Positions 37,017-48,555 of a stretch of DNA of 64,000 bases are shown here, in pieces. Source of the DNA: Gongronella butleri (taxonomy: Eukaryota; Mucoromycota; Mucoromycetes; Mucorales; Cunninghamellaceae); assembly GCA_025201375.1 (NCBI GenBank), contig JAIWZP010000017.1:372001-436000 (forward strand), read 5' to 3'. The translations under genes were made by a program, and so were the position numbers. The notes under the pieces are model-generated. The model did not search any database, was not told where the DNA came from, and saw only the letters and a program-made list of their open reading frames with translations. Within the stretch, counting starts at the first letter, position 1, and each line of letters opens with the position of its first letter.

Positions 37017-37268
37017 TGCTGTAGGGCGATCGGGCAAGTCTTTTTGTTCAAAATTTGTCTAATTGTTTAAAACGCGTCTAGATAATCATTTGCAAACCAA
37101 TTGATTACGTAATCGGGACCGAAGCAAAGACACGGGTATAAGGCCACAGTGTCTTCCCGGGAGACAATGTTCAGTGCAATTAAAAAGACTTTAAAGGCAT
37201 AGATGTCCTATAAAATAAATGTTGATCTATCATACTAAGCACAGGCAACCAATTATGACCGACCTCCT
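37017..37268. repeat. Left direct terminal repeat of outer element
   Basis: 252 bp beginning TGCTGTAGGGCGATCGGG and ending GACCGACCTCCT. Differs from the right copy by one extra G near the start and one T/C change (TGTTTAAAAC against TGCTTAAAAC). Contains the 12-bp palindrome GATTACGTAATC at 37103-37114 and a potential stem AAGACAC/GTGTCTT around the sequence GGGTATAAGGCCACA. Confidence 0.9.
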
Positions 37269-37279
37269 TGTTTTAAATA

Positions 37280-37840
37280 TTAACCCTCAGTAATGGTAAG
37301 CATATATTCTTGTACCATGTTCCCATCGTCGTTAAATTCGTCCATTGATAGCCACCTATTATGTCTGTTGTCATATCCAATCCATTTTACTCTGTATTGG
37401 ATGCCATTAGGGGTATGACGATGATTAATAATCCTCTCAACCTCGTAATTACCGGTACTCTGATCGGCATCTTGCATTACCATCTCTTCTTCAACATTAG
37501 TGCTAACAATACAATTCCTCCCTTGTGCAAAAGCATCTTCAATAGTAAGATTAAAAAGCTCTTGTTGTATTGTCTCTATTTTCTCTTTATGCGCACGTCT
37601 GTCAGATATGCTCAAAATGTCGACGACATCATAAATAGAACTAGTAGAAGCAGTACCACCGTAATAATCAAAGTCTTTATGCATCCAAAATGTATGATGA
37701 TCTGTTTGTTGAAGTTGTCCCATGGCAACAAACTTTTTCATGTTGCTTAAAACGCATGCCAACTTGAATTGTGCCGTAAAGACAGCAGTTTCAGATACGC
37801 GGATCACAGATTTGCCATTAAATCGATGAAAAAGGTGACC
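37280..37840 (-). pseudogene. C-terminal part of DDE transposase-chromodomain gene (interrupted)
   Basis: This minus-strand segment is the downstream part of the transposase gene that starts at 46347; removing the Gypsy element and one copy of its AAGCT duplication keeps the frame exactly. It adds 186 residues. It begins GHLFHRFNGKSVIRVSE, the helix that follows the catalytic Glu in DDE_Tnp_4 proteins, then a linker, and ends with a chromodomain at about residues 425-474 of the joined 479-aa protein (YEVERIINHRHTPNG, then YRVKWIGYDNRHNRWL with the aromatic/Trp pattern of the fold). The stop TAA is at 37282-37280. Expression as a separate protein is unlikely because the start is missing. Confidence 0.85.
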
Positions 37841-37845
37841 AAGCT
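37841..37845. repeat. Target-site duplication AAGCT, left copy
   Basis: AAGCT directly precedes the left LTR and is repeated directly after the right LTR at 45469-45473. A 5-bp duplication is usual for Ty3/Gypsy integrases. Confidence 0.95.
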
Positions 37846-38284
37846 TGTGAATCTAGTGAACAAGACAGAAAGACGGGACTAAAAGTACGGCTTTAATGGG
37901 GAAAAGAAAGATGAGAGGGAAGAGAAAGAGAGACTAAGGGAAGGCGAGCTTAAATAGAGGGGAATGGATGATTCAGGGTCAGACATTCAGCTGTGTGGCG
38001 ATCTGACCGGAGTCTCGGGCTGTGCAAAGGGTCCGATTATGGGAATCAATGCATTGCATTAGGCACCCTTTGCATCCAGCGCGTCATGCTACACTAAGGG
38101 GCAATGTGAGTGCTAATGAGCATCACGCGTAGCCACAGCACATGCTGCTGATGCTGTGCTTTATGCACTAATATGGAGCGTGTGCTAGGAAAAGCAAGAT
38201 GTCAGGCCCTGTGTGCGACCGAGAATGAATCTTGGCTGTGATCCGCTGCCTTGCATGCTCTAATGATCCATGTCAAGATTGACA
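37846..38284. repeat. LTR (3' LTR in element orientation)
   Basis: Starts TGTGAATC and ends GATTGACA, giving 5'-TG...CA-3' and an imperfect 8-bp terminal inversion. Length 439 bp, the same as the other LTR, with no difference noticed on reading. Confidence 0.95.
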
Positions 38285-38296
38285 TTGCCCCCCACC
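38285..38296 (-). other. Polypurine tract
   Basis: On the minus strand GGTGGGGGGCAA lies immediately upstream of the 3' LTR, the position of the plus-strand priming site in LTR retrotransposons. Confidence 0.7.
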
Positions 38297-38702
38297 AGGT
38301 CGGACATAGGTCTGACAACGAGCGAGGAAAAGAGGGGATCATGCTATGCGGGTATGATGTCCGAAGATGTGCGATCGGATTGGCAAGAATTGCATCAGCT
38401 ACAGATGGAGCTGGAGATGCCCGCGCATAGGAGCAAGTCAAAAAATAGAATGAATTGGGTCTCTTGGGTATATCATACTGTATATGTTCCCTTTCAAAGA
38501 ATGATAATGAGATGGTGAAATAGCCGATGTTCTTGTTCGTGCGTACTAGTGATTCTACACTCTGCAAGTATGTACAAAAAATAATAAAAGTAGTGGCAGG
38601 CATCTGCTGCATGGTTGTTGCAAGGATGGACCGAGTGGATGGATGTCCAAACTCGAAAAAGTGGCAGCGGACTTTTTTTTTTTTTTTTTATGGGAACGGG
38701 CC

Positions 38703-40208
38703 TTAGCGCTGGGCGCCGGGTTGCCCCCGCCAATAATTGTTGATTAGAGTCTTGCCATCAAAATTCTCTGCAGGAATCCACAGATTGTGCTTGCGTGAAT
38801 AGCCTTTCCATTTGACATAATATTCGTATTGCCCTTTTTTCATTTCACGATGCGCGAGAATTTTTTCCACATGATAAGATTGGCCTCGCAATGGTGCAGG
38901 ATCATCATTGTCGCTGTCCTCTTCCATAAGCGGGTCATGGGAAATGGGTTTCAATTGGTGTGGTGCGAAACGCTCCGGTAGGCGCTCATTGATGTGATAA
39001 TTTTCAAGTCTATAGGAACCACCTCGTGTGCGTTCGACAACGCGGAAAGGACCATGATATTTGGGCTCCAATTTACGTGTGTAGAGGGGATCAGCAATTG
39101 CGACAAGGGAGCCTATTTGGAATTCCACCAATTTATGCTTCTTGTTGAAGCGCGCTTGGGCTGCCTCGCGCAGTTTGCGTTGACGACTGGCAATGGCCGG
39201 ACGGATGACTTCTTGGATCTCACGGTAATGACGTTCGATGTCTTTGGGATCATATGTGTAAACCGGAATGTGTTTTTCAATCGTGTCCTTTAGGTCGGCA
39301 TTGTGGTCAATGAAGCCATTGGCTCGACGTGCAAAAAACAGATCAAAAGGAGCACTGCCTGTGAGAGAATGAGGCTGCAAGTTGTAAAAATAGCTCACAG
39401 TGTCTACATATTCATCCCAATCTTGTAGGCGACTGTCGACCAGCTTGGCCAGCATGCGGGTGGTGGTCTGTACACTGCGCTCCGCAGCACCATTGCTGCG
39501 CGGCGAATAAGGCGTGATGAGGCGTGCATCAATCGAGCCGCATTGATGTATGAGCTTAACAAGCTGATTGACAAACTCTTGCCCATTATCTGAGCTGATG
39601 ACACGTGGAAACCCAATACGTGTGAATATTTTAAGCAAAGTGCGAGCGACAGTGGGACCGGTTTTATCAGCAATGGGTTCCAGAACGACAAATTTGCTGA
39701 AAATGTCAATGACAAGAAGCATGTAATGATTGCCCGAGTGAGAAGTGGGAAATGCCCCCGCCAAATCTATCGCAATGTGCGCCAAAGGCTCGTGGGCCTC
39801 GATGCTTTTTAAGGGATGATATCCATGACGTGGAACAGAGAATTGTAAGCATTGTGGGCAGCCTTGGACATGATATACAGCGTCGGCTCGGAGAGTTGGC
39901 CAATCATAGCCCAGAAGGTGAATTGATTTGATCATGGCGTCTGCGCCAAAATGACCCTTCAGGTGCTGGTCGCGTATGAGCTGCTTTTTGAGTGCCTCAT
40001 CTGTGGGCAAATGCTTTTTTTCTGTGTCTAGAACACGCGCAGCCCGAATGAGCGGAGGCTGAGAAGGTTTGTGGTACCATTCAGAGAAAAAAATATCTTC
40101 ATCAACATTGACAGGGATCATGTCCGGGCAAAAAATGGGGGGTGCGGGAGGAAGATCTGTTTTTGATGAAACGCCGGCCAAGCGGGCATTTAAACCCGTC
40201 ATGTCCAT
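38703..40208 (-). CDS. Gypsy integrase with C-terminal chromodomain
   Basis: The 501-codon minus-strand frame begins shortly after the RNase H frame ends. It has the HHCC zinc-binding region (HLKGHFG, then GCPQC), a DDE core (AIDLAGAF, SSDNGQEF, and Glu in SNGAAERSVQ), the GPY-like segment KYHGPFRVVERTRGGSYRL, and a chromodomain near the end (YHVEKILAHREM, YYVKWKGYSRKHNLWIP). Chromodomain integrases are known to steer insertion toward histone-marked chromatin. It is in the -1 frame relative to the RNase H segment; joining would need a shift at an A-rich site near 40235. The first ATG (40208) need not be a true start. Confidence 0.93.
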   Translation of the reverse strand: MDMTGLNARLAGVSSKTDLPPAPPIFCPDMIPVNVDEDIFFSEWYHKPSQPPLIRAARVLDTEKKHLPTDEALKKQLIRDQHLKGHFGADAMIKSIHLLGYDWPTLRADAVYHVQGCPQCLQFSVPRHGYHPLKSIEAHEPLAHIAIDLAGAFPTSHSGNHYMLLVIDIFSKFVVLEPIADKTGPTVARTLLKIFTRIGFPRVISSDNGQEFVNQLVKLIHQCGSIDARLITPYSPRSNGAAERSVQTTTRMLAKLVDSRLQDWDEYVDTVSYFYNLQPHSLTGSAPFDLFFARRANGFIDHNADLKDTIEKHIPVYTYDPKDIERHYREIQEVIRPAIASRQRKLREAAQARFNKKHKLVEFQIGSLVAIADPLYTRKLEPKYHGPFRVVERTRGGSYRLENYHINERLPERFAPHQLKPISHDPLMEEDSDNDDPAPLRGQSYHVEKILAHREMKKGQYEYYVKWKGYSRKHNLWIPAENFDGKTLINNYWRGQPGAQR

Positions 40209-40811
40209 GTGGGGCGTAGGCTTATCGCCTTTTTTTCCCTTTTTTTTTCTTTTGGCACACCGGATGGGGGCTCTAGCTCAGAAAACGGCCTTCTTTGACT
40301 CACAAGCTCGTCCTGTTGGTCCTCAAACATACGAGATAAACTGTCAGCAATGAGGTTCAGCTTGCCCGGCAGGTGAACAACTTGAAAGTTATAGTCAAGC
40401 AGCGTTTCAAGCCAATTCGCCATGACAGCGTTGATTTCGGCTTGCGAATGCATGTATTGCAGAGCACGGTGATCTGAGAAGACGGTGAACGTGGCGCTCT
40501 GACCCCAGAGATACACACGGAATTTTTTCAGGGCAAAAACGAGGGCTAAGAGCTCACGACGCGTGCACGAGTAATTTTTTTCAGCTTTAGAGAGAGAACG
40601 CGAGACAAACGATATGTACAGTCGGCGGTCCGCCTGGTCAGGGTGCTCTTGGAACAAACAAGCACCAATGCCCGTGTTGGAAGCATCACACGCCACGAAA
40701 AATGGGCGATTGAAGTCTGGTTGGGACAACAAAGGCGCTGAAACCAGCATTTGCTTCAATTTGGTAAATGCGCGTGTATGCTCATCAGTCCAAAGATGAG
40801 TAATTTTTTTT
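40199..40811 (-). CDS. Gypsy RNase H segment of pol
   Basis: Minus-strand frame continuing pol after the break at the A10 run. It contains the RT thumb/connection end (HLWTDEHTRAFTKLKQMLVS, PDFNRPFFVACDASNTGIG) and RNase H with the DAS, ELL (TRRELLALVFAL) and SDH (VFSDHRALQYM) motifs, then VVHLPGKLNLIADSLSR. Frame ends at 40199 in GVPKEKKREKKA. The frame is open back to 41020, but the part between 40811 and 41020 is the shadow of the RT frame. Confidence 0.9.
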
Positions 40812-43300
40812 TTCGTTGCGTAGGCGGTCCAGGCAATGTGTGACGGAAGACATTTGGGGCATGAATTCACGGAAATAGCCAGCAAAACCAAGCCAGCGCA
40901 TGATATCTTTGCCGGAGCGTGGAATTTGCCATTGATCAAGGTTGACAAGTTTTGCAGGGTCAATGCGCTTCCCTTCACGCGAGACACAGAAGCCCAGGAG
41001 ACGTACAGATGCGTGTGCAATGCGGCATTTGGATGGATTCAAGACGAGATTGGCATTTGTCAAGATTTGGATGACCTCGCAGACATGGCGCGTGTGCTCT
41101 TCGAGCGTGTTGCTGAAAATGATCAAATCATCAATAAAATTCAAGACGAAGGGTTTGTCACGAAGGAGGTATCCCATTGTCCGCTGGTATTGGCTCGAAA
41201 TTTTTTTTAGGCCAAACGGACAAGCCAAAAATGCATATTGGCTGTTGCCAAAGGTGAAGGTGGTCTTGACGACGTCCTCGTCGGCGACCTTGAAGGCATG
41301 AAATGCGGACTTTAAATCCAGGCACGTGAAAATGCCATGATTGGCAATGCGATTAAAAATGGTGGAGACAACAAGAGGGATTTCAAAGTGATCATCTGGG
41401 ATGAGGGCATTGAGAGCACGCGGATCCAAGCATACACGATACGCTATCGTTTGACCCAACATGTTGCGTTTAGGCACTATGGTCAGCGGTGAATTCCACG
41501 GATTGTCCGGCTCAGTGACACGGCGAATGAGACCGTCGTTTAGCCATGATTTGACTGTTTTTTCCACTTCCGGGTAGAGAGCAATTGGGATCGGATATTG
41601 CCGTCTATAGGCATGCTGGCCCGGGGGCGTCGGCAAAGTAACCAAAGCGCCAGGTGCATTGCAAAAAGAACCCGGTGGAATGGCCTGATTGGCGTCTAAA
41701 AAGGGCTGAATGCAAGCCATCATGCGTGCACGCTCTTGTTCGGTGCCCACGGGTGAATTGTCAACAGTGGGGAGCGCGTCGTCATTGGCCTCAGGGTCTG
41801 TTAAGCCTGTAACATTATGGCTTTTTTTATGAATGGGCTCTAAGCCATATAGACCAAGGCCTAGCTTGTGCCAGATGTCTGTACCAATGGAAACGTGGAC
41901 CCCTTGGTGGGGCATGTCAAGGAGCTCTAGTGCATGAGTGAGCGTATTTTTCCCATGAATGATCTCGATGGGTTCTGTTGTGCCTAATCTGGGTTTGAAA
42001 ACACCTGCAATGGCCGTATGGATGACACCATCTGTGGCAGGATAGACTTTTATTTTTCTTTGAGCTGCATATGAGGGAGAGATGAGTGTGCGATTGGCAC
42101 CGCAGTCCACCAAAGCGAAAATGTCTTCACCCTGTAAAGTGATGGCAGTAAAAAATGAGTCTCCTAGAGAAAATTGGCGGATTCCCTTATCCACACACGC
42201 TTGCATGGTATACAGCAAGAGACGAGTGTGCGTGGATTGATCTTTGAGGTTACCCGATGTGTCCATGTCGCCGGTCATGCCAAGGTAAGCCTTGGTGGGC
42301 GCACTGGAGAGGTCATTGGCATGCAAAGCATCGCTAGCTGCGGCCGCGTTCATAGGGCGATTGTCCAAAACATGATTGGAGTGTTGCTTGGGACGTGCAT
42401 TGGGGCAATGGCGGTAATGATTGCGACGATCAAAGGTGGGGTCGTCCGGAAACTGCACCATGCATTTAAAGCAATAATGATGCTGGCGAGGTGGGGAGGA
42501 ATGTGGCTGGTCTTGATCAAATTGTGCCTGACGCACCGCGATGTGGCCCTGTTGGCCATTGTTGTAAGCCTGGCGAGGCTGCTGTGCGCCCTCGGCGTAT
42601 CGTTGGTCTTGACGCGTGGGGATGTCGCCATTGTTGGCGCTCCCTTGGTTCTGCTGACGGCCTTGTTGCGGGTACGGACCCGTGTAGGACCTGCCACGAT
42701 GGCCACGACCTCGACGATTGCGGTCATTGTTGTTTCTGTGGTCGTTGCTGCCCGAGAAACCGCCATTGGCATGGCCCTGGCCATTGTCATTGTTGTTGTT
42801 GTAACGTGGAGCGGGCTGGGAGCGGCCATTGTGAAGGTAGTAAGCCTCGTAATGGGCGCCTTTCTGGAAGAGACGGCCAAATCCTTGAATTTCCGCGAGC
42901 TTAGGATCCTCGGCGATGTTGAATCGCTGCAGGAACATTTCATGCGTCTTGCTGCTGCCAGCCAGGGTGGTGATGCATCGGTGTCCTTGTTGAGGAAGCT
43001 CGTCCACACCGGCCTTGCGCGCATATCGCGCATATCGGTCCAAATATTCGTCGATGAACATGCCCGGCTTGAGCTTCATGTTGTCCAGCAGCTGCTGGTA
43101 GTGGAGCGTGCGGGTGGAGCTGTCGAATAGGCGGGTGAGCGTGGGCTCAACATTGCCCAGCCATGTCCAATTCGCGGTGTCACGGCCCTTGACCTCCTCA
43201 CGCCATTGAGAAAGATGAGCCTTTGTGAGCGCGGCGTCTGTCACGATCCAATTCGTGAGCATTGTCCACAACTCTTTTTTTTTTTCTTGCTCCCTTTCGC
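40785..43300 (-). CDS. Gypsy capsid end, C2H2-like finger, protease and reverse transcriptase
   Basis: One long minus-strand frame, open to 43532, with element-like sequence from about 43280. Order: gag/capsid part (LSQWREEV, WTWLGNVEPTLTRLFD, KPGMFIDEYLDRYARYA), an Arg/Gly/Asn/Gln-rich stretch, a zinc finger CFKC...HYRH with C-x2-C-x14-H-x2-H spacing instead of a CCHC knuckle, protease FALVDCGANRTLIS (DCGA in place of DSGA or DTGA), and reverse transcriptase (LDLKSAFHAF, CPFGLKK, FIDDLIIFS in place of YxDD). The frame stops after EKKNYSSLD because of the A10 run at 40802-40811; one base less would continue into RNase H. Confidence 0.9.
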
Positions 43301-43885
43301 TCCTTTTTGTTTCCATTCCTTCTCTTTTCCTTTGGCAGCCGCCCAATTCCAACACCATCATCTGGCCATGGCTCGTGGCTTTCAAACGCACCCTCTCACA
43401 AGTTTGTAGCTGCTCTCCCCATCGAGCAATGGCCGATCTTCTCCTTTGCCCCGCTTTTTCTCCTTTTGCTGCGCCGCTGGAATCTCGATCTGTCTGTGCG
43501 CCAAGGCTGCAGACCAATTGGCCTTGTCGCACATAAAAGACCCGCCACTCTCCTTTTCCCCTTTTTTTTCTTTTCTTTTTTTCTTTACCCTTTCAACACC
43601 GTTTCTCCTCCTCTGAACCCCCCTCTTGCTATTACAATAAAACTCCTTGCTTGTTTGTCACCAATATCAAGATGCGTCCTACCAATAGAGTCCACGAGCG
43701 CCCCGCTCGCCATATCCGTGGCGCTGCTTCACGCCACGCACAACAACAACCACGTCGCGAACGTCTCGTTGTTAAACGGGCCGTCGACGTGGCCCGTCGC
43801 CGCCCCACTTTGCGTTCCGTGCTTGCGCCCGAGACGCTGGTCCGTTGGGCCCCAACGCCGCAGCAAGAGGACGGTCCAGCAGAGG
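43285..43885. other. Insert-like segment interrupting gag, with plus-strand promoter features
   Basis: Minus-strand gag similarity fades at about 43890 (after SWQQIIDAV) and resumes at about 43280. Between them the plus strand looks like host gene leader: a T-rich run ending CTTTGGCAG (43338), CATAAAAGA at 43532, long C/T tracts, AATAAAACTCC and an ATG at 43672. The plus frame from 43672 to 44160 encodes 162 residues, Arg-rich at the start (RPTNRVHERPARHIRG), which match no known family. No splice sites on the minus strand explain the gap. Confidence 0.45.
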
Positions 43886-44721
43886 ATCGTCACAGCGTCG
43901 ATGATTTGCTGCCAGGAATCGTCCAGGGCAATGCCGGCGCGAGCCATGACCGGCTTCAAATCGTCCAGAAATTCTTCCACGTCTTCGTAGAATTTGGTAA
44001 TGGCCTTGCCCTTACGGTCTTGCTTTGCATCCTTGGACGCATTGTCATCCGACATGTCCTTGTGGTAGTCAAAGCGGAGGAGAGGGAGATCGTCGGGCAG
44101 GGCGCGCTTGCGCTTGTCTTGGCCCACCAGCGGGGCAGAGGCTGGTGCAGCAGGGAGTGACGCTTGGAGTGACGCTTGGACCTTGCACAGACTGTCTGAA
44201 TAGGCAGCCGCCTCGGTCATACGCGCACAAAGGCGGTCGACTTCCTGCTGAGACGCGTGTGTTGCCTTGGCAAATGCAAAAGCCATTGAACAGGAATGGA
44301 GCTCGCGTTGAGCTTGCGCGACATGGGCAGCAATGGCATTGATTGCCTCTAAAGGCGAAGGAACGGAGGCACTAGGAGCCACAACAACAGATGGGGCAGG
44401 CACTGACGAGGCAGCACCCTCATGATGAGGGGCCTCAGTCACGGCCGCAATGGAAGAATTCAATGTGGAGGCAGCACCCAACATAGCCGGGGCCTCAGAC
44501 ATCTCAACATCCGCGTCCTGCACCAACGTGGACACGGAAACAGACCCATCATCAGAAGCAGGGTCTCGCAGTGAGAGCGCGAACAGACGGTCTTGCTGCT
44601 GTGACACAGCCGATGACGCAGAGGATGACGGGCTTGAACCCAGAGAGAGATCATTGGGTTGAGGCGCGCTATCGGTGGAAGCCGCCGATTGGTGCTCGAG
44701 AGGTTGCAGGTTGGTCATCAA
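43729..44721 (-). CDS. Gypsy gag N-terminal region
   Basis: A 330-codon minus-strand frame just inside the 5' LTR. The start MMTNLQPLEHQSAAS is followed by a long Ser/Ala/Pro/Val-rich, low-complexity region (about 190 residues) and then a more ordered capsid-like part (LLRFDYHKDMSDDNASKDAKQDRK, ITKFYEDVEEFLDDLKP, DDSWQQIIDAV). The last 45 codons read through the insert-like segment and are probably not native. Position and composition fit gag; sequence similarity alone would not prove it. Confidence 0.75.
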   Translation of the reverse strand: MMTNLQPLEHQSAASTDSAPQPNDLSLGSSPSSSASSAVSQQQDRLFALSLRDPASDDGSVSVSTLVQDADVEMSEAPAMLGAASTLNSSIAAVTEAPHHEGAASSVPAPSVVVAPSASVPSPLEAINAIAAHVAQAQRELHSCSMAFAFAKATHASQQEVDRLCARMTEAAAYSDSLCKVQASLQASLPAAPASAPLVGQDKRKRALPDDLPLLRFDYHKDMSDDNASKDAKQDRKGKAITKFYEDVEEFLDDLKPVMARAGIALDDSWQQIIDAVTILCWTVLLLRRWGPTDQRLGRKHGTQSGAATGHVDGPFNNETFATWLLLCVA

Positions 44722-45029
44722 GATCGAAAAAAAAAGAGTGTGCCGAATTGAGGACCAAAAAAAAAATATGTGCGTCGACTAGATGTAATAATCGGTGTCA
44801 GAAAAGAAGGTTGGTGCCACGTGAATAAGGTTCTGTCACGGGTGTCGTGGAAGGTGATAGGAGCGAGTGAGGGTGTTGAGAGGGGGATTGCAAAAAAAAA
44901 ATGTGGTGTAGAATGATGGGTGGCAAACGTTGCAATCGAGGGAGAGAAGGAATACAAAAAAAATCACTGGGATGTAATGTATAAATAGGGATGAGAGAGT
45001 GTGTGAATCGAAGAACTCGTCAAAAAAAA
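44722..45029 (-). other. Leader between 5' LTR and gag; primer-binding site not canonical
   Basis: On the minus strand the LTR end TTCACA is followed by TTTTTTTGACGAGTTCTTCG. A tRNA-primed element would normally have TGG within a few bases, and none is present. The leader includes several runs of A or T and a TATAAATAGGG-like string on the plus strand at about 44980. Confidence 0.6.
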
Positions 45030-45468
45030 TGTGAATCTAGTGAACAAGACAGAAAGACGGGACTAAAAGTACGGCTTTAATGGGGAAAAGAAAGATGAGA
45101 GGGAAGAGAAAGAGAGACTAAGGGAAGGCGAGCTTAAATAGAGGGGAATGGATGATTCAGGGTCAGACATTCAGCTGTGTGGCGATCTGACCGGAGTCTC
45201 GGGCTGTGCAAAGGGTCCGATTATGGGAATCAATGCATTGCATTAGGCACCCTTTGCATCCAGCGCGTCATGCTACACTAAGGGGCAATGTGAGTGCTAA
45301 TGAGCATCACGCGTAGCCACAGCACATGCTGCTGATGCTGTGCTTTATGCACTAATATGGAGCGTGTGCTAGGAAAAGCAAGATGTCAGGCCCTGTGTGC
45401 GACCGAGAATGAATCTTGGCTGTGATCCGCTGCCTTGCATGCTCTAATGATCCATGTCAAGATTGACA
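45030..45468. repeat. LTR (5' LTR in element orientation)
   Basis: 439 bp, same ends and apparently identical to 37846-38284. Contains AGCTTAAATAGAGGGG and a cluster CAGCACATGCTGCTGATGCTG. In element orientation transcription would begin inside this copy. Confidence 0.95.
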
Positions 45469-45473
45469 AAGCT
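45469..45473. repeat. Target-site duplication AAGCT, right copy
   Basis: Matches 37841-37845 and confirms a single integration event into the transposase gene. Confidence 0.95.
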
Positions 45474-46347
45474 CTCCAAAACGAGATTCTATAGATGACC
45501 TAAACCCGCCAAGCAGCTGGTTATAAGCTATCTCTTCTGCACTAAGATTTACACCTCTTGATCTTCTCACAGGAGTTACAAAGCTCTCAATCTGAAGATG
45601 GGGGTTCATGTGCAATATACGATTTATAAATAGGGTATATCCTCCATCCACACAAACGACATCAAAGCGACTTATTTTATCAGATAAATCCATCGAAACA
45701 AGCATCGAACCATCATTATTTGCAGCACATGGTGCAGCCTCTGAAACAAACAAAATCATGCTATTGATATCCATGCCTACCTGGGTGCGAAAGCCAGATT
45801 TCTTTAATTTGTAAGAATAATAATCAGCTCTCGATGATGCATTTATATAGGTTGCTCGTGAATCGTGACCATCAATCATCTTCGTTACATGTTTAAACTC
45901 GTTAGGATTCATTTCTCTTGCATACATTACTCTAATCTTTACATTCGAAAACATCACAGCTAGGCATTCATCTAATTTTTTATTTAGCCAGTCCACTTGC
46001 TTTGAATAAAAGACTTTGTAAATGGTATTGAAGGTGCTTTTGGGTATAAATTGCCCCATTTGATCCATGGACGCACCGGTCAATAGATGATACAATATCA
46101 AAAGGCCTTTCTCCACTCCACGATATGGTCCAGGATAATCTCTATTGCTAAATAATACTGTCAAAAAGAAATATACAGGTATATAGCCCAAACGTTCAAG
46201 CACGTAATTTTTTACCATCTCTATACCAAGTATTCCCTTTATTTCAGATCGATGGTTCTCTCTTTCAACAATGGGCCAGTCATCATTCAGAAATGACCAA
46301 TATATTCTAACCAAATATTGAAATAACTGTCTAAGATCATCGTTCAT
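45469..46347 (-). pseudogene. N-terminal part of DDE transposase-chromodomain gene (interrupted)
   Basis: 293 codons on the minus strand from ATG 46347 up to the insertion. The catalytic core resembles DDE_Tnp_4 (PIF/Harbinger and IS5-like): a helical N-terminal region (EKGLLILYHLLTGASMDQM, FIPKSTFNTIYKVFY), first Asp in MIDGHDS (D159), the block YSYKLKKSGFRTQVGMD, second Asp in VVCVDGGYT (D234) and Glu in GFRSSIESRFGEL (E287). The frame continues beyond the retrotransposon at 37840. No N-terminal DNA-binding domain is recognisable; a C-terminal chromodomain replaces it. Start codon chosen because the divergent gene begins 135 bp away. Confidence 0.85.
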
Positions 46348-46482
46348 CTTGCCTTTGATCTCATGTATAGTGCATTCAAATAAAGCCCCGTTTTAAAATG
46401 GTCACATGATTAATCATTTATGTGAAGAGCTATTTATAATCAAACGCCGACGACCAAGCAAGATTTGTAAAGTCTGTGCAAT
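46348..46482. promoter_or_regulatory. Divergent promoter of the outer element
   Basis: 135 bp between the transposase ATG and the ATG of the 560-aa partner. AT-rich, with TATTTATAATC at about 46431-46441 and GTTTTAAAATGG at about 46391. Probably drives both genes. Confidence 0.55.
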
Positions 46483-48165
46483 ATGATGACCAACACTATT
46501 GTAAACTCTTTCCTTTATGAACATTCCCAATACCTAAACGACCTTTATGGTATTGACTACACAGAAAATTATGACAAACTTTATGGATGGACAGATTTTA
46601 CGAGCATTTTCGTTGACAGCATTATGCTATGGTGCGCCTTTGACACGAATTGTGACGTTACCCAAAAGATCAAGTTCTTCATGGGTATCATCAAGAGCTG
46701 CTTGTTATCTGCCTTTGAAAATCATCAGTTTCGCATAAAATATATCAGAAAAGGCATATGGCAGAGCTTTGATCTCGCATCTGAGGAAATGGAAATGCGT
46801 CAATCATGGAATGAAGTAGGTTACCTTGGTATTAATGTCACGTTTCATAATATTAGCTTGAATGACGTACTTCATTCCTTGCAACAAGAGGCTCTCGCGA
46901 GATTGCATGAAAATAGGGTCTTAATTCGAAGTATCGATGTGACAGTTGATTGCGCACGCATTTCGACGCGTAAAATCATCGAAAAATACCTCCTGTCACG
47001 CAATCTTGCCACCATATTTGATATTGTGAATGACCGACGAAAAACTGGTGATAACTGCATCTCTTACCTAGGCAAGTGTCCCCAATTGAACAACGCAAAT
47101 ACTCGTACGAAAATCTATAACAAGTTCATTCAGGCCTTGGAAAGCACGCAAGTTCTTCAGCTCCTAGGATCACGTCTCAGCCATCTTGTTGCCAGTCCAG
47201 ATACCTCATCCATGGAAAGACTAAAGCGTTTTCTAGGTGCTGGATATACTCGTATCGAATTAACCATCTACGGCAGCACGCTCTTTGCTCCCACCTCATA
47301 CGAACATGCAATGAACAACTTGCTGGATGATCTTGCAGAATGCCCCACTTTCAATGTTCCCTTGTACGAGCAATGGCACAAGATTGTCAATAAGCTTTCC
47401 CAAGTTACTGCAGTGTACATCGAGAGTACAGGTACTTTTGCTTACTGTCATTGGTGGAACTCACTTACAAGGCGAATGCAGGGTATTTGTAAAGATAAAA
47501 TTAGCAGAGATAAACTTGAGTGCTTGTTAGCCAACTTCAGCTTCAACGACAGAATTATCCACTGCTTCTTTATTGAGCAAATCACTGCTGACACCACCGG
47601 TAACAATCACTCGTATGACGTTATTAAACACGAGCGTTACCAAAGAGCTGAAGGATGTAACGCCATGACGTTGGTACCTGGTCTGTCCAATTCCTTGTTT
47701 CCTTCCCGTAGTCGTCTTCAAATAGAAAATATCAGCATGTTTGCCGACGTTGGCCTTGATATCTATAAGAACATCTACATCGAGTGGCCTAACCATCGCC
47801 TGGAAAATTCTATCAATCGCAGTTTGGCGCCGTTGGTCAAGATAGAAGATTCCTTTAGCATGTTATCCTTGACCAATGCGCTCCCAGAGTCATTGATCGT
47901 CATAAACAGCCCTCAGGTATCATCATACAGAGCTGATTATTCATGTCTTGCCATTGGTGAAACTTACACTGTAAATAAGTATGGATACGCGTCGTTCAGA
48001 AATAAAACGTATCTACATCTGGTCCTCAATAATGGCATTGTGAAAGCACGCTGCAGCAGTGATGAATTGCAAGGAGTAATCGAAGAAAATATCGCTGGAA
48101 ATGTAGTCTTTAGCTTTATTGTTACTCGCAAGGTAAAAAGAACCGTTTACGTTAATATCATCTGA
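46483..48165 (+). CDS. Unrecognised 560-aa protein of the outer element, initiator-like motifs
   Basis: A single long intronless frame; TGA at 48163-48165 abuts the right terminal repeat. I do not recognise the family with certainty. Blocks that look conserved are RSIDVTVDC (residues 149-157), NCISYLGK (191-198), TRTKIYNKFIQ (207-217) and GYTRIELTIYG (254-264). Their order, an Asp-containing strand, a YLG segment, a K-x-YNK motif and an R-x-E-L strand, resembles plasmid and phage replication initiator proteins of the Rep_trans type, but that similarity is by eye only. The C-terminal 150 residues are beta-rich without known motifs. Codon use is AT-richer than host genes and no introns are present, both unlike neighbours. 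Inferred role: DNA-processing partner of the transposase. Confidence 0.7.
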   Translation: MMTNTIVNSFLYEHSQYLNDLYGIDYTENYDKLYGWTDFTSIFVDSIMLWCAFDTNCDVTQKIKFFMGIIKSCLLSAFENHQFRIKYIRKGIWQSFDLASEEMEMRQSWNEVGYLGINVTFHNISLNDVLHSLQQEALARLHENRVLIRSIDVTVDCARISTRKIIEKYLLSRNLATIFDIVNDRRKTGDNCISYLGKCPQLNNANTRTKIYNKFIQALESTQVLQLLGSRLSHLVASPDTSSMERLKRFLGAGYTRIELTIYGSTLFAPTSYEHAMNNLLDDLAECPTFNVPLYEQWHKIVNKLSQVTAVYIESTGTFAYCHWWNSLTRRMQGICKDKISRDKLECLLANFSFNDRIIHCFFIEQITADTTGNNHSYDVIKHERYQRAEGCNAMTLVPGLSNSLFPSRSRLQIENISMFADVGLDIYKNIYIEWPNHRLENSINRSLAPLVKIEDSFSMLSLTNALPESLIVINSPQVSSYRADYSCLAIGETYTVNKYGYASFRNKTYLHLVLNNGIVKARCSSDELQGVIEENIAGNVVFSFIVTRKVKRTVYVNII

Positions 48166-48416
48166 TGCTGTAGGCGATCGGGCAAGTCTTTTTGTTCAAA
48201 ATTTGTCTAATTGCTTAAAACGCGTCTAGATAATCATTTGCAAACCAATTGATTACGTAATCGGGACCGAAGCAAAGACACGGGTATAAGGCCACAGTGT
48301 CTTCCCGGGAGACAATGTTCAGTGCAATTAAAAAGACTTTAAAGGCATAGATGTCCTATAAAATAAATGTTGATCTATCATACTAAGCACAGGCAACCAA
48401 TTATGACCGACCTCCT
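48166..48416. repeat. Right direct terminal repeat of outer element
   Basis: 251 bp matching 37017-37268 in the same orientation. The palindrome GATTACGTAATC is at 48251-48262 and the AAGACAC/GTGTCTT stem at 48275-48303. Confidence 0.9.
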
Positions 48417-48555
48417 AGGTGGCATGCATCATGATACTGTAGCAAAGGGTTCTTCGTTACTTCGTTTGGTGACAAGAAGCAATCGAACTTCGAACCAGGC
48501 ATACTGTACGATAAACGATATCATAGTTTTTTTTTGCCGCTACAGTAAATGACTC

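Follow-up and report, generated by a model that had tools for sequence, protein, structure and literature searches.

How does a DNA transposon framed by long direct repeats move, and what keeps its two repeats the same? The question is raised by a locus in a 64,000-nucleotide (nt) stretch of the Gongronella butleri genome (GCA_025201375.1, contig JAIWZP010000017.1, positions 372,001 to 436,000, forward strand; hereafter the window). Here, two copies of a direct repeat (R) enclose an internal segment (INT) that carries a transposase gene with DDE_Tnp_4 and chromodomain regions and a partner gene, whose product we predict to contain a Rep_trans-like initiator domain. Our reading is that this fungal R-INT-R transposon likely moves via a circle with a single R, which would be copied by the partner and inserted by the transposase; we give it a probability of about one half.

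Direct comparison of the two R of the window element finds 242 of 243 positions identical, and comparison across many copies fixes the R borders at GGCGATCGGG...GACCGACCTCC. A first-pass annotation, made from the letters of the window alone, had correctly recognized near-identical direct repeats as the frame of the element, but its length of 252 bp is replaced by 243 bp. It had also placed the genes within 12 bp or 0 bp of the repeats: the former holds for the transposase (stop at 37280), whereas the partner stop at 48165 lies 7 bp from R. Calling the element compact does not suit the window copy, which is interrupted by a nested long terminal repeat (LTR) retrotransposon, most of the 11.4 kb being Ty3/gypsy. 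The sister copy L010 is uninterrupted and 3.78 kb long, and its only two open reading frames of at least 150 amino acids (aa) are the transposase (L010:2784-4235) and the partner, each a single open frame, of 483 and 560 aa. The annotated pairing of a DDE_Tnp_4-chromodomain protein with an unfamiliar gene is borne out: the L010 transposase matches PF13359 (DDE_Tnp_4) at 36.2 bits, above the cut-off of 24.8, and the partner matches nothing in Pfam at E ≤ 1.

Related copies recur through the 33 Mb assembly, in counts that are lower bounds throughout. The R of the window belongs to subfamily A, found in at least 15 places at ≥90% identity, i.e. four pairs around gene copies and seven R standing alone (solos). 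At least five R pairs and seven solos make up subfamily B; subfamily C has at least two pairs, six solos, and one fragment, and subfamily D at least one pair and five solos. In subfamily E, at least one pair, whose right R is truncated, is joined by 34 further places (including fragments, one of which adjoins a partner-gene fragment). Subfamily F comprises two broken gene copies (L022 and L026), each with a single R, and at least six solos, and subfamily G consists of at least four copies, two of them degenerate, with no genes found nearby. Long direct repeats occur at all six diverged gene loci L029-L034 and at neither broken F locus. The R types span 221-244 bp; those of A, F, and G are ~70-80% identical to one another, and those of B, C, D, and E match them in short stretches only. 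The two genes are divergent in A and B and lie on the same strand in C, D, and E.

Each R runs from GG to CC and carries short inverted ends of its own, which match at 61 of 84 positions when the first 12 nt are taken across the seven R types, compared with a mean of 21.9 for random internal windows. Perfect outer 3-bp duplications are found at 11 of the 12 complete copies; among independent full-length solos, 27 of 31 have one. When the comparison is shifted by 1-11 bases, a match is seen in 0-1 of the 12 copies and 0-3 of 33 solos (before removal of duplicates). The base past the duplication matches in 10 of 45 cases, which is the chance level, and the duplication is therefore 3 bp long. Solos entered this test with R at ≥85% identity and an end-to-end match, a threshold that excluded the truncated right R of L032 and two degenerate G copies (L018 and L023); the set then went from 33 to 31 (duplications from 28 to 27) on removal of the right R of L033, which had been retrieved twice, and of one member of an R pair that lies in an inverted duplication on contig C102. 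The solos tested are part of the places listed and, for the 36 places of E, those within stretches fetched otherwise. The INT ends are also fixed; in A and B, INT begins with ttgtttta after the left R and closes with ctgta before the right R, and these two ends are not repeats of each other; in C61, three additional bases stand at the left INT border. The first-pass annotation had proposed direct in place of inverted ends. The direct R stand, but inverted ends occur within each of them. The further copies with identical ends and the solo repeats that it suggested looking for are both present, and the findings it had named as fatal to the idea (ends lying elsewhere, or a repeat unrelated to the genes) were looked for and did not refute it, with gene-free solos keeping the ends of the complete copies.

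Within elements of subfamily A, the two R differ at 0, 1, 0, and 1 positions, compared with a mean of 2.0 between elements (24 comparisons). Specifically, L011 has a 3-bp insertion common to both of its R and absent from the 12 other copies compared. In subfamily B, a single position separates the R pair of L029 from that of L030. These comparisons cover nine of the 12 full copies, and the 91% R copy in L018 was dropped. Because the two R of an element are near-identical, the pattern of differences indicates that some process makes or keeps them so, through a single template at insertion or through later conversion.

Both genes are under purifying selection, as judged from the ratio of nonsynonymous to synonymous substitution rates (dN/dS), in a table that leaves aside the subfamily D transposase (no frame >350 aa) and in which most dS values are saturated. 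In the transposase, D159, D234, and E287 are invariant across a 29-row alignment (28 of 120 listed matches plus L010), and inspection of the L010 row finds no Kolobok C/DxxH motif between D234 and E287. Named transposase relatives include, among the matches listed, Cunninghamella, Apophysomyces, Lobosporangium, Mortierella, and others, and named partner relatives Rhizomucor, Actinomortierella, and Linnemannia; these few named relatives of both proteins are ones that we take to belong to Mucoromycota. The transposases of subfamilies A and B (L010 and L030) are closely similar, with a dS of 0.59. Since their partner genes are nonetheless saturated at silent sites and their R unlike, modules seem to have been exchanged between the two subfamilies.

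The partner is the more unusual protein. Its conserved residues are D45, D152, D156, K210, Y212, K214, Q217, R257, and E259 (37 of 48 matches aligned with the window protein), and the order and spacing of the metal-binding acids, the Y-x-K, and the R-x-E fit the Rep_trans catalytic set, which 12 of the 48 homologues, several of them short, miss. The invariant residues coincide with catalytic positions of Rep_trans, including Y-x-K-xx-Q. A first, stricter pattern taken from plasmid Reps was matched by 44 of the 48 partner homologues and by only 6 of the 120 listed phage Rep_trans proteins, and it was therefore loosened to residues common to both kinds. In a BFVD fold search, the whole-protein partner model has weak matches that lead no further, the first being an inovirus G2P Rep (E 3.2e-4). 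Nine partner homologues compared with Pfam have no matches or weak unrelated ones, and PHROGs, NCBIfam, and PDB sequence searches with the partner return nothing informative. We predict that residues ~37-290 form a Rep_trans-like catalytic domain and that the protein is a single-strand-nicking initiator. The C-terminal part has a feature of its own at residues 321-327 (window 47443-47463), an invariant or near-invariant Y-[CS]-HWWNS that belongs to no known family.

How might these parts work together? A circular form is the best fit. The circle would consist of one R plus INT, with the junction ctgta/R/ttgtttta. The Rep-like partner would nick it, perhaps at the R core, and launch rolling-circle synthesis, and the transposase would link the outer R ends to a target cut with a 3-bp stagger. 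Two R could result if a concatemer unit were excised between the left end of one R and the right end of the following one, or if the ends of a single R were nicked on opposite strands and gap repair doubled it. Circle or concatemer units would share one R template, so each new insertion would start with an identical R pair. A lone R has both ends, and solos could stem from the same kind of movement or be what R-R recombination leaves behind.

Several observations weigh against this reading. No circle was observed. One full copy of the 12 (on C50) has ATT/AAT at its flanks and no duplication; the R pair of L031 (subfamily C) differs by a 3-nt indel, its left R being closer to the R of L034; and the F gene copies L022 and L026 have one R only, both being truncated within the partner gene. 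As for the partner, the spacing windows of the motif were picked after the protein had been seen. PF02486 is matched by neither the partner nor its tested homologues, nor anywhere in the genome. Profile-profile comparison (hhalign) with a phage Rep_trans alignment (23 of 120 listed matches) is not significant, with a probability of 0.2 that the transposase, used as a negative control, equals or exceeds (0.4), and the sole weakly aligned partner stretch is the R-x-E motif. Foldseek matches of the partner to 4cij are weak (TM-scores 0.28-0.32, root-mean-square deviation >10) and a TBP chain ranks first, while VIA puts 4cij level (within 1 Z) with half-domain matches, e.g. ribosomal protein S6; two ferredoxin-like halves are a common arrangement. 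Of 48 contigs with partner homologues, 17 fall in a size peak near 3.2-4.0 kb, and seven contig sizes occur repeatedly in the first 28 of the 120 listed transposase matches. Assembly breaks at two identical R also yield unit-size metagenome contigs (3.3-3.7 kb, with both genes), and contig sizes do not separate circles from contigs split at R.

One alternative concerns the solos, which could arise solely by R-R recombination, as solo LTRs do, with R never mobile alone. This would suit the solos of A-C, which are 96-100% identical to the query R except for one 91% copy and most of which retain the 3-bp duplication, as expected after recombination. It sits poorly with subfamily E, where 36 R places (including fragments), up to 14% from the query, are accompanied by one gene-flanking pair only, a pattern that favours separate movement of R without proving it. 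We see recombination as the sole source as a serious contender that falls somewhat short of an even chance.

The element could also be a composite resembling KolobokP that does without a rolling circle, moving by cut-and-paste via its outermost ends, with R mobile alone like a miniature inverted-repeat transposable element and DNA cuts by the partner only stimulating recombination. R identity would then be kept by gene conversion, by unequal crossover, or by a recombination-born circle re-inserting into a solo R. No replication is required, and architecture and solos are as in KolobokP, for which such models were proposed (PMC9587614). Yet (R-INT)n-R multimers, of which KolobokP has many, are absent among the places listed for subfamilies A-D (lists that are lower bounds), the truncations of L022 and L026 within a gene are not clean losses of R, and the private insertion in both R of L011 demands recent conversion or one template. 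We regard this composite as fairly unlikely.

A further variant is a hybrid of transposon and plasmid, i.e. a eukaryotic rolling-circle episome of one R plus INT that is copied by its own Rep_trans-type initiator; the DDE transposase would nick the ends of its single R on opposite strands, leaving two long 3' overhangs that gap repair turns into a doubled R. Were this so, the terminal direct repeats would record a staggered cut of 221-244 bp in the donor, that is, 'LTRs' without reverse transcription; we hold it to be rather doubtful. Less probable again is a partner that has no enzymatic role and assists by binding R through a TBP-like double ferredoxin fold, comparable to the DNA-binding Myb/SANT protein of PIF/Harbinger. 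TBP is indeed the top Foldseek match, and the second open reading frame is DNA-binding in most PHIS elements (PMC4482050). This does not account for invariant residues that sit on Rep_trans catalytic positions. To our knowledge, TBP has no conserved tyrosine-metal site, which also counts against an accessory role.

Two other candidates were rejected. An LTR retrotransposon is dismissed since L010 has no reverse transcriptase among its open reading frames and that of the window is the nested element's, and a chance repeat because the genome holds three more full copies of subfamily A, eight of subfamilies B, C, and D, and many solos. A virus or phage origin finds no support in IMG/VR scans with partner and transposase alignments, which gave no confirmed relative, nor does a bacterial plasmid origin in plasmid tblastn or prokaryote contigs searched with the partner, both of which gave none.

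The features of the window element are collected in Table 1.

Table 1. Transposon features in the window, with positions counted from its first base.
Feature	Position	Strand	Remarks
Left target site duplication copy, TAG	37022..37024	.	Equals 48416-48418
Left terminal direct repeat R, 243 bp	37025..37267	+	Short inverted ends within R: GGCGATCGG... / ...CGACCTCC
Core inside R, GAAGC...GGGTATAA	37121..37142	+	Equivalent in right R: 48269-48290
Transposase gene 3' part, DDE_Tnp_4 + chromodomain	37280..37845	-	Chromodomain near gene end; severed by nested LTR element; holds one AAGCT duplication copy
Nested Ty3/gypsy-like chromodomain LTR retrotransposon	37846..45468	-	RVT_1, RNase H, rve, Chromo
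Transposase gene 5' part, DDE_Tnp_4	45469..46347	-	
Noncoding motif ATTTATGTGAAGAG	46416..46429	.	Between the two genes
Partner gene, 560 aa	46483..48165	+	Residues ~37-290: predicted Rep_trans-like catalytic domain
Right terminal direct repeat R, 243 bp	48173..48415	+	242 of 243 positions as in left R
Right target site duplication copy, TAG	48416..48418	.	

The R core has GAAGC or a near form at R nt 93-97 in all R types but D (six of seven), with a CTAA/TATAA-like string ~17 nt further on, while nearby sequence is diverged. The partner may recognize or nick DNA at this core. In F and E, the core contains or adjoins a small palindrome. A second motif, ATTTATGTGAAGAG, is exact in the INT of A, D, E, and F, has two mismatches in C, and is not in B, counts that stand without a chance control. 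In the window, it forms part of an intergenic GTCACATGA-N6-ATTTATGTGAAGAG (46401-46429), and GTCACATGA stands beside ATTTATGTGAAGAG in C and F as well. The GTCACATGA/ATTTATGTGAAGAG region lies upstream of the transposase in some copies and upstream of the partner in others; ATTTATGTGAAGAG may be a promoter or an origin. No structured RNA is found at Rfam gathering scores.

The nested Ty3/gypsy-like element has LTRs (37846-38284 and 45030-45468) that are identical at 439 of 439 positions, is flanked by AAGCT on both sides, and is not a component of the host transposon. Judged by the identical 439-bp LTRs, it is very young. A chromodomain is present in both members of this nest, host transposon and retrotransposon alike. 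Elsewhere in the genome, the subfamily C solos L049 and L050 (C102:78540-78840 and 70095-70395) lie ~8 kb from each other close to the end of a contig, in opposite orientation and with identical flanks, which may reflect a large inverted duplication, and at L057 (C78:929400-931400) an F copy breaks off within the partner gene into low-complexity TCTCGA-like repeats.

The architecture has a close precedent. The first-pass annotation knew of no described family with such a design, and this is corrected in part by KolobokP, for which Kojima and Bao (2022; PMC9587614) describe long terminal direct repeats with their own inverted ends, solo repeats, and a circle among the proposed models; the pairing of this design with a DDE_Tnp_4-chromodomain protein and the present partner was found in no paper of the open-access literature. 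Shared with KolobokP are the long direct R with short inverted ends, a DDD/E transposase with a second, nuclease-type gene, and solos with target duplications. By contrast, KolobokP as described there belongs to the animal Kolobok superfamily, often forms multimers, and has repeats of around 450 or 660 bp and a His-Me finger homing nuclease, whereas the present elements are fungal, with a DDE_Tnp_4 transposase with chromodomain, 3-bp duplications, R of 221-244 bp, no multimers seen, and a partner that resembles Rep_trans and, lacking any Pfam match, gives no sign of that homing nuclease.

The transposase brings the element close to PHIS (PIF/Harbinger-ISL2EU-Spy) transposons, with DDE_Tnp_4, a 3-bp duplication, short inverted ends, and two genes in ~3.5-4 kb (PMC4482050). 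Where known, their second gene encodes Myb/SANT or, in ISL2EU, YqaJ, neither of which is matched here in Pfam, and the term 'direct repeat' is absent from the text of that paper. The partner shares with Rep_trans initiators and MOBT relaxases (RepSTK1, RepD, and RelSt3; PMC4797284 and PMC6499999) the order and near-identical spacing of acids, tyrosine, lysine, and glutamine, and a similar, weakly supported predicted fold. Those proteins, as described there, come from bacterial plasmids, phages, and conjugative elements, are shorter, and have no detectable profile similarity to the partner, which has ~30 extra residues ahead of R-x-E and an added 260-residue C-terminal part with the invariant HWWNS. 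In IS6/IS26, the transposase gene sits inside the repeat, whereas R here is noncoding. Their translocatable units, as cited in PMC9587614, carry one repeat and a passenger as a circle and have inserted forms with two direct repeats.

In the open-access literature, we found DDE transposons with long terminal direct repeats in one animal lineage only, no DDE_Tnp_4/PHIS-type transposase paired with a direct-repeat architecture and a Rep_trans-like protein, and no eukaryotic transposon with a Rep_trans protein. The architecture (KolobokP) and the PHIS-type transposase are already known, and their combination with a Rep_trans-like partner is what appears new. That fungi show this architecture with a transposase of another superfamily suggests convergence, and so a common mechanism. 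A Rep_trans-like initiator beside a DDE transposase in a eukaryote would unite mobile-DNA strategies that are usually separate, and the family offers a compact, many-copy, and apparently young system for direct testing of how identical repeats originate.

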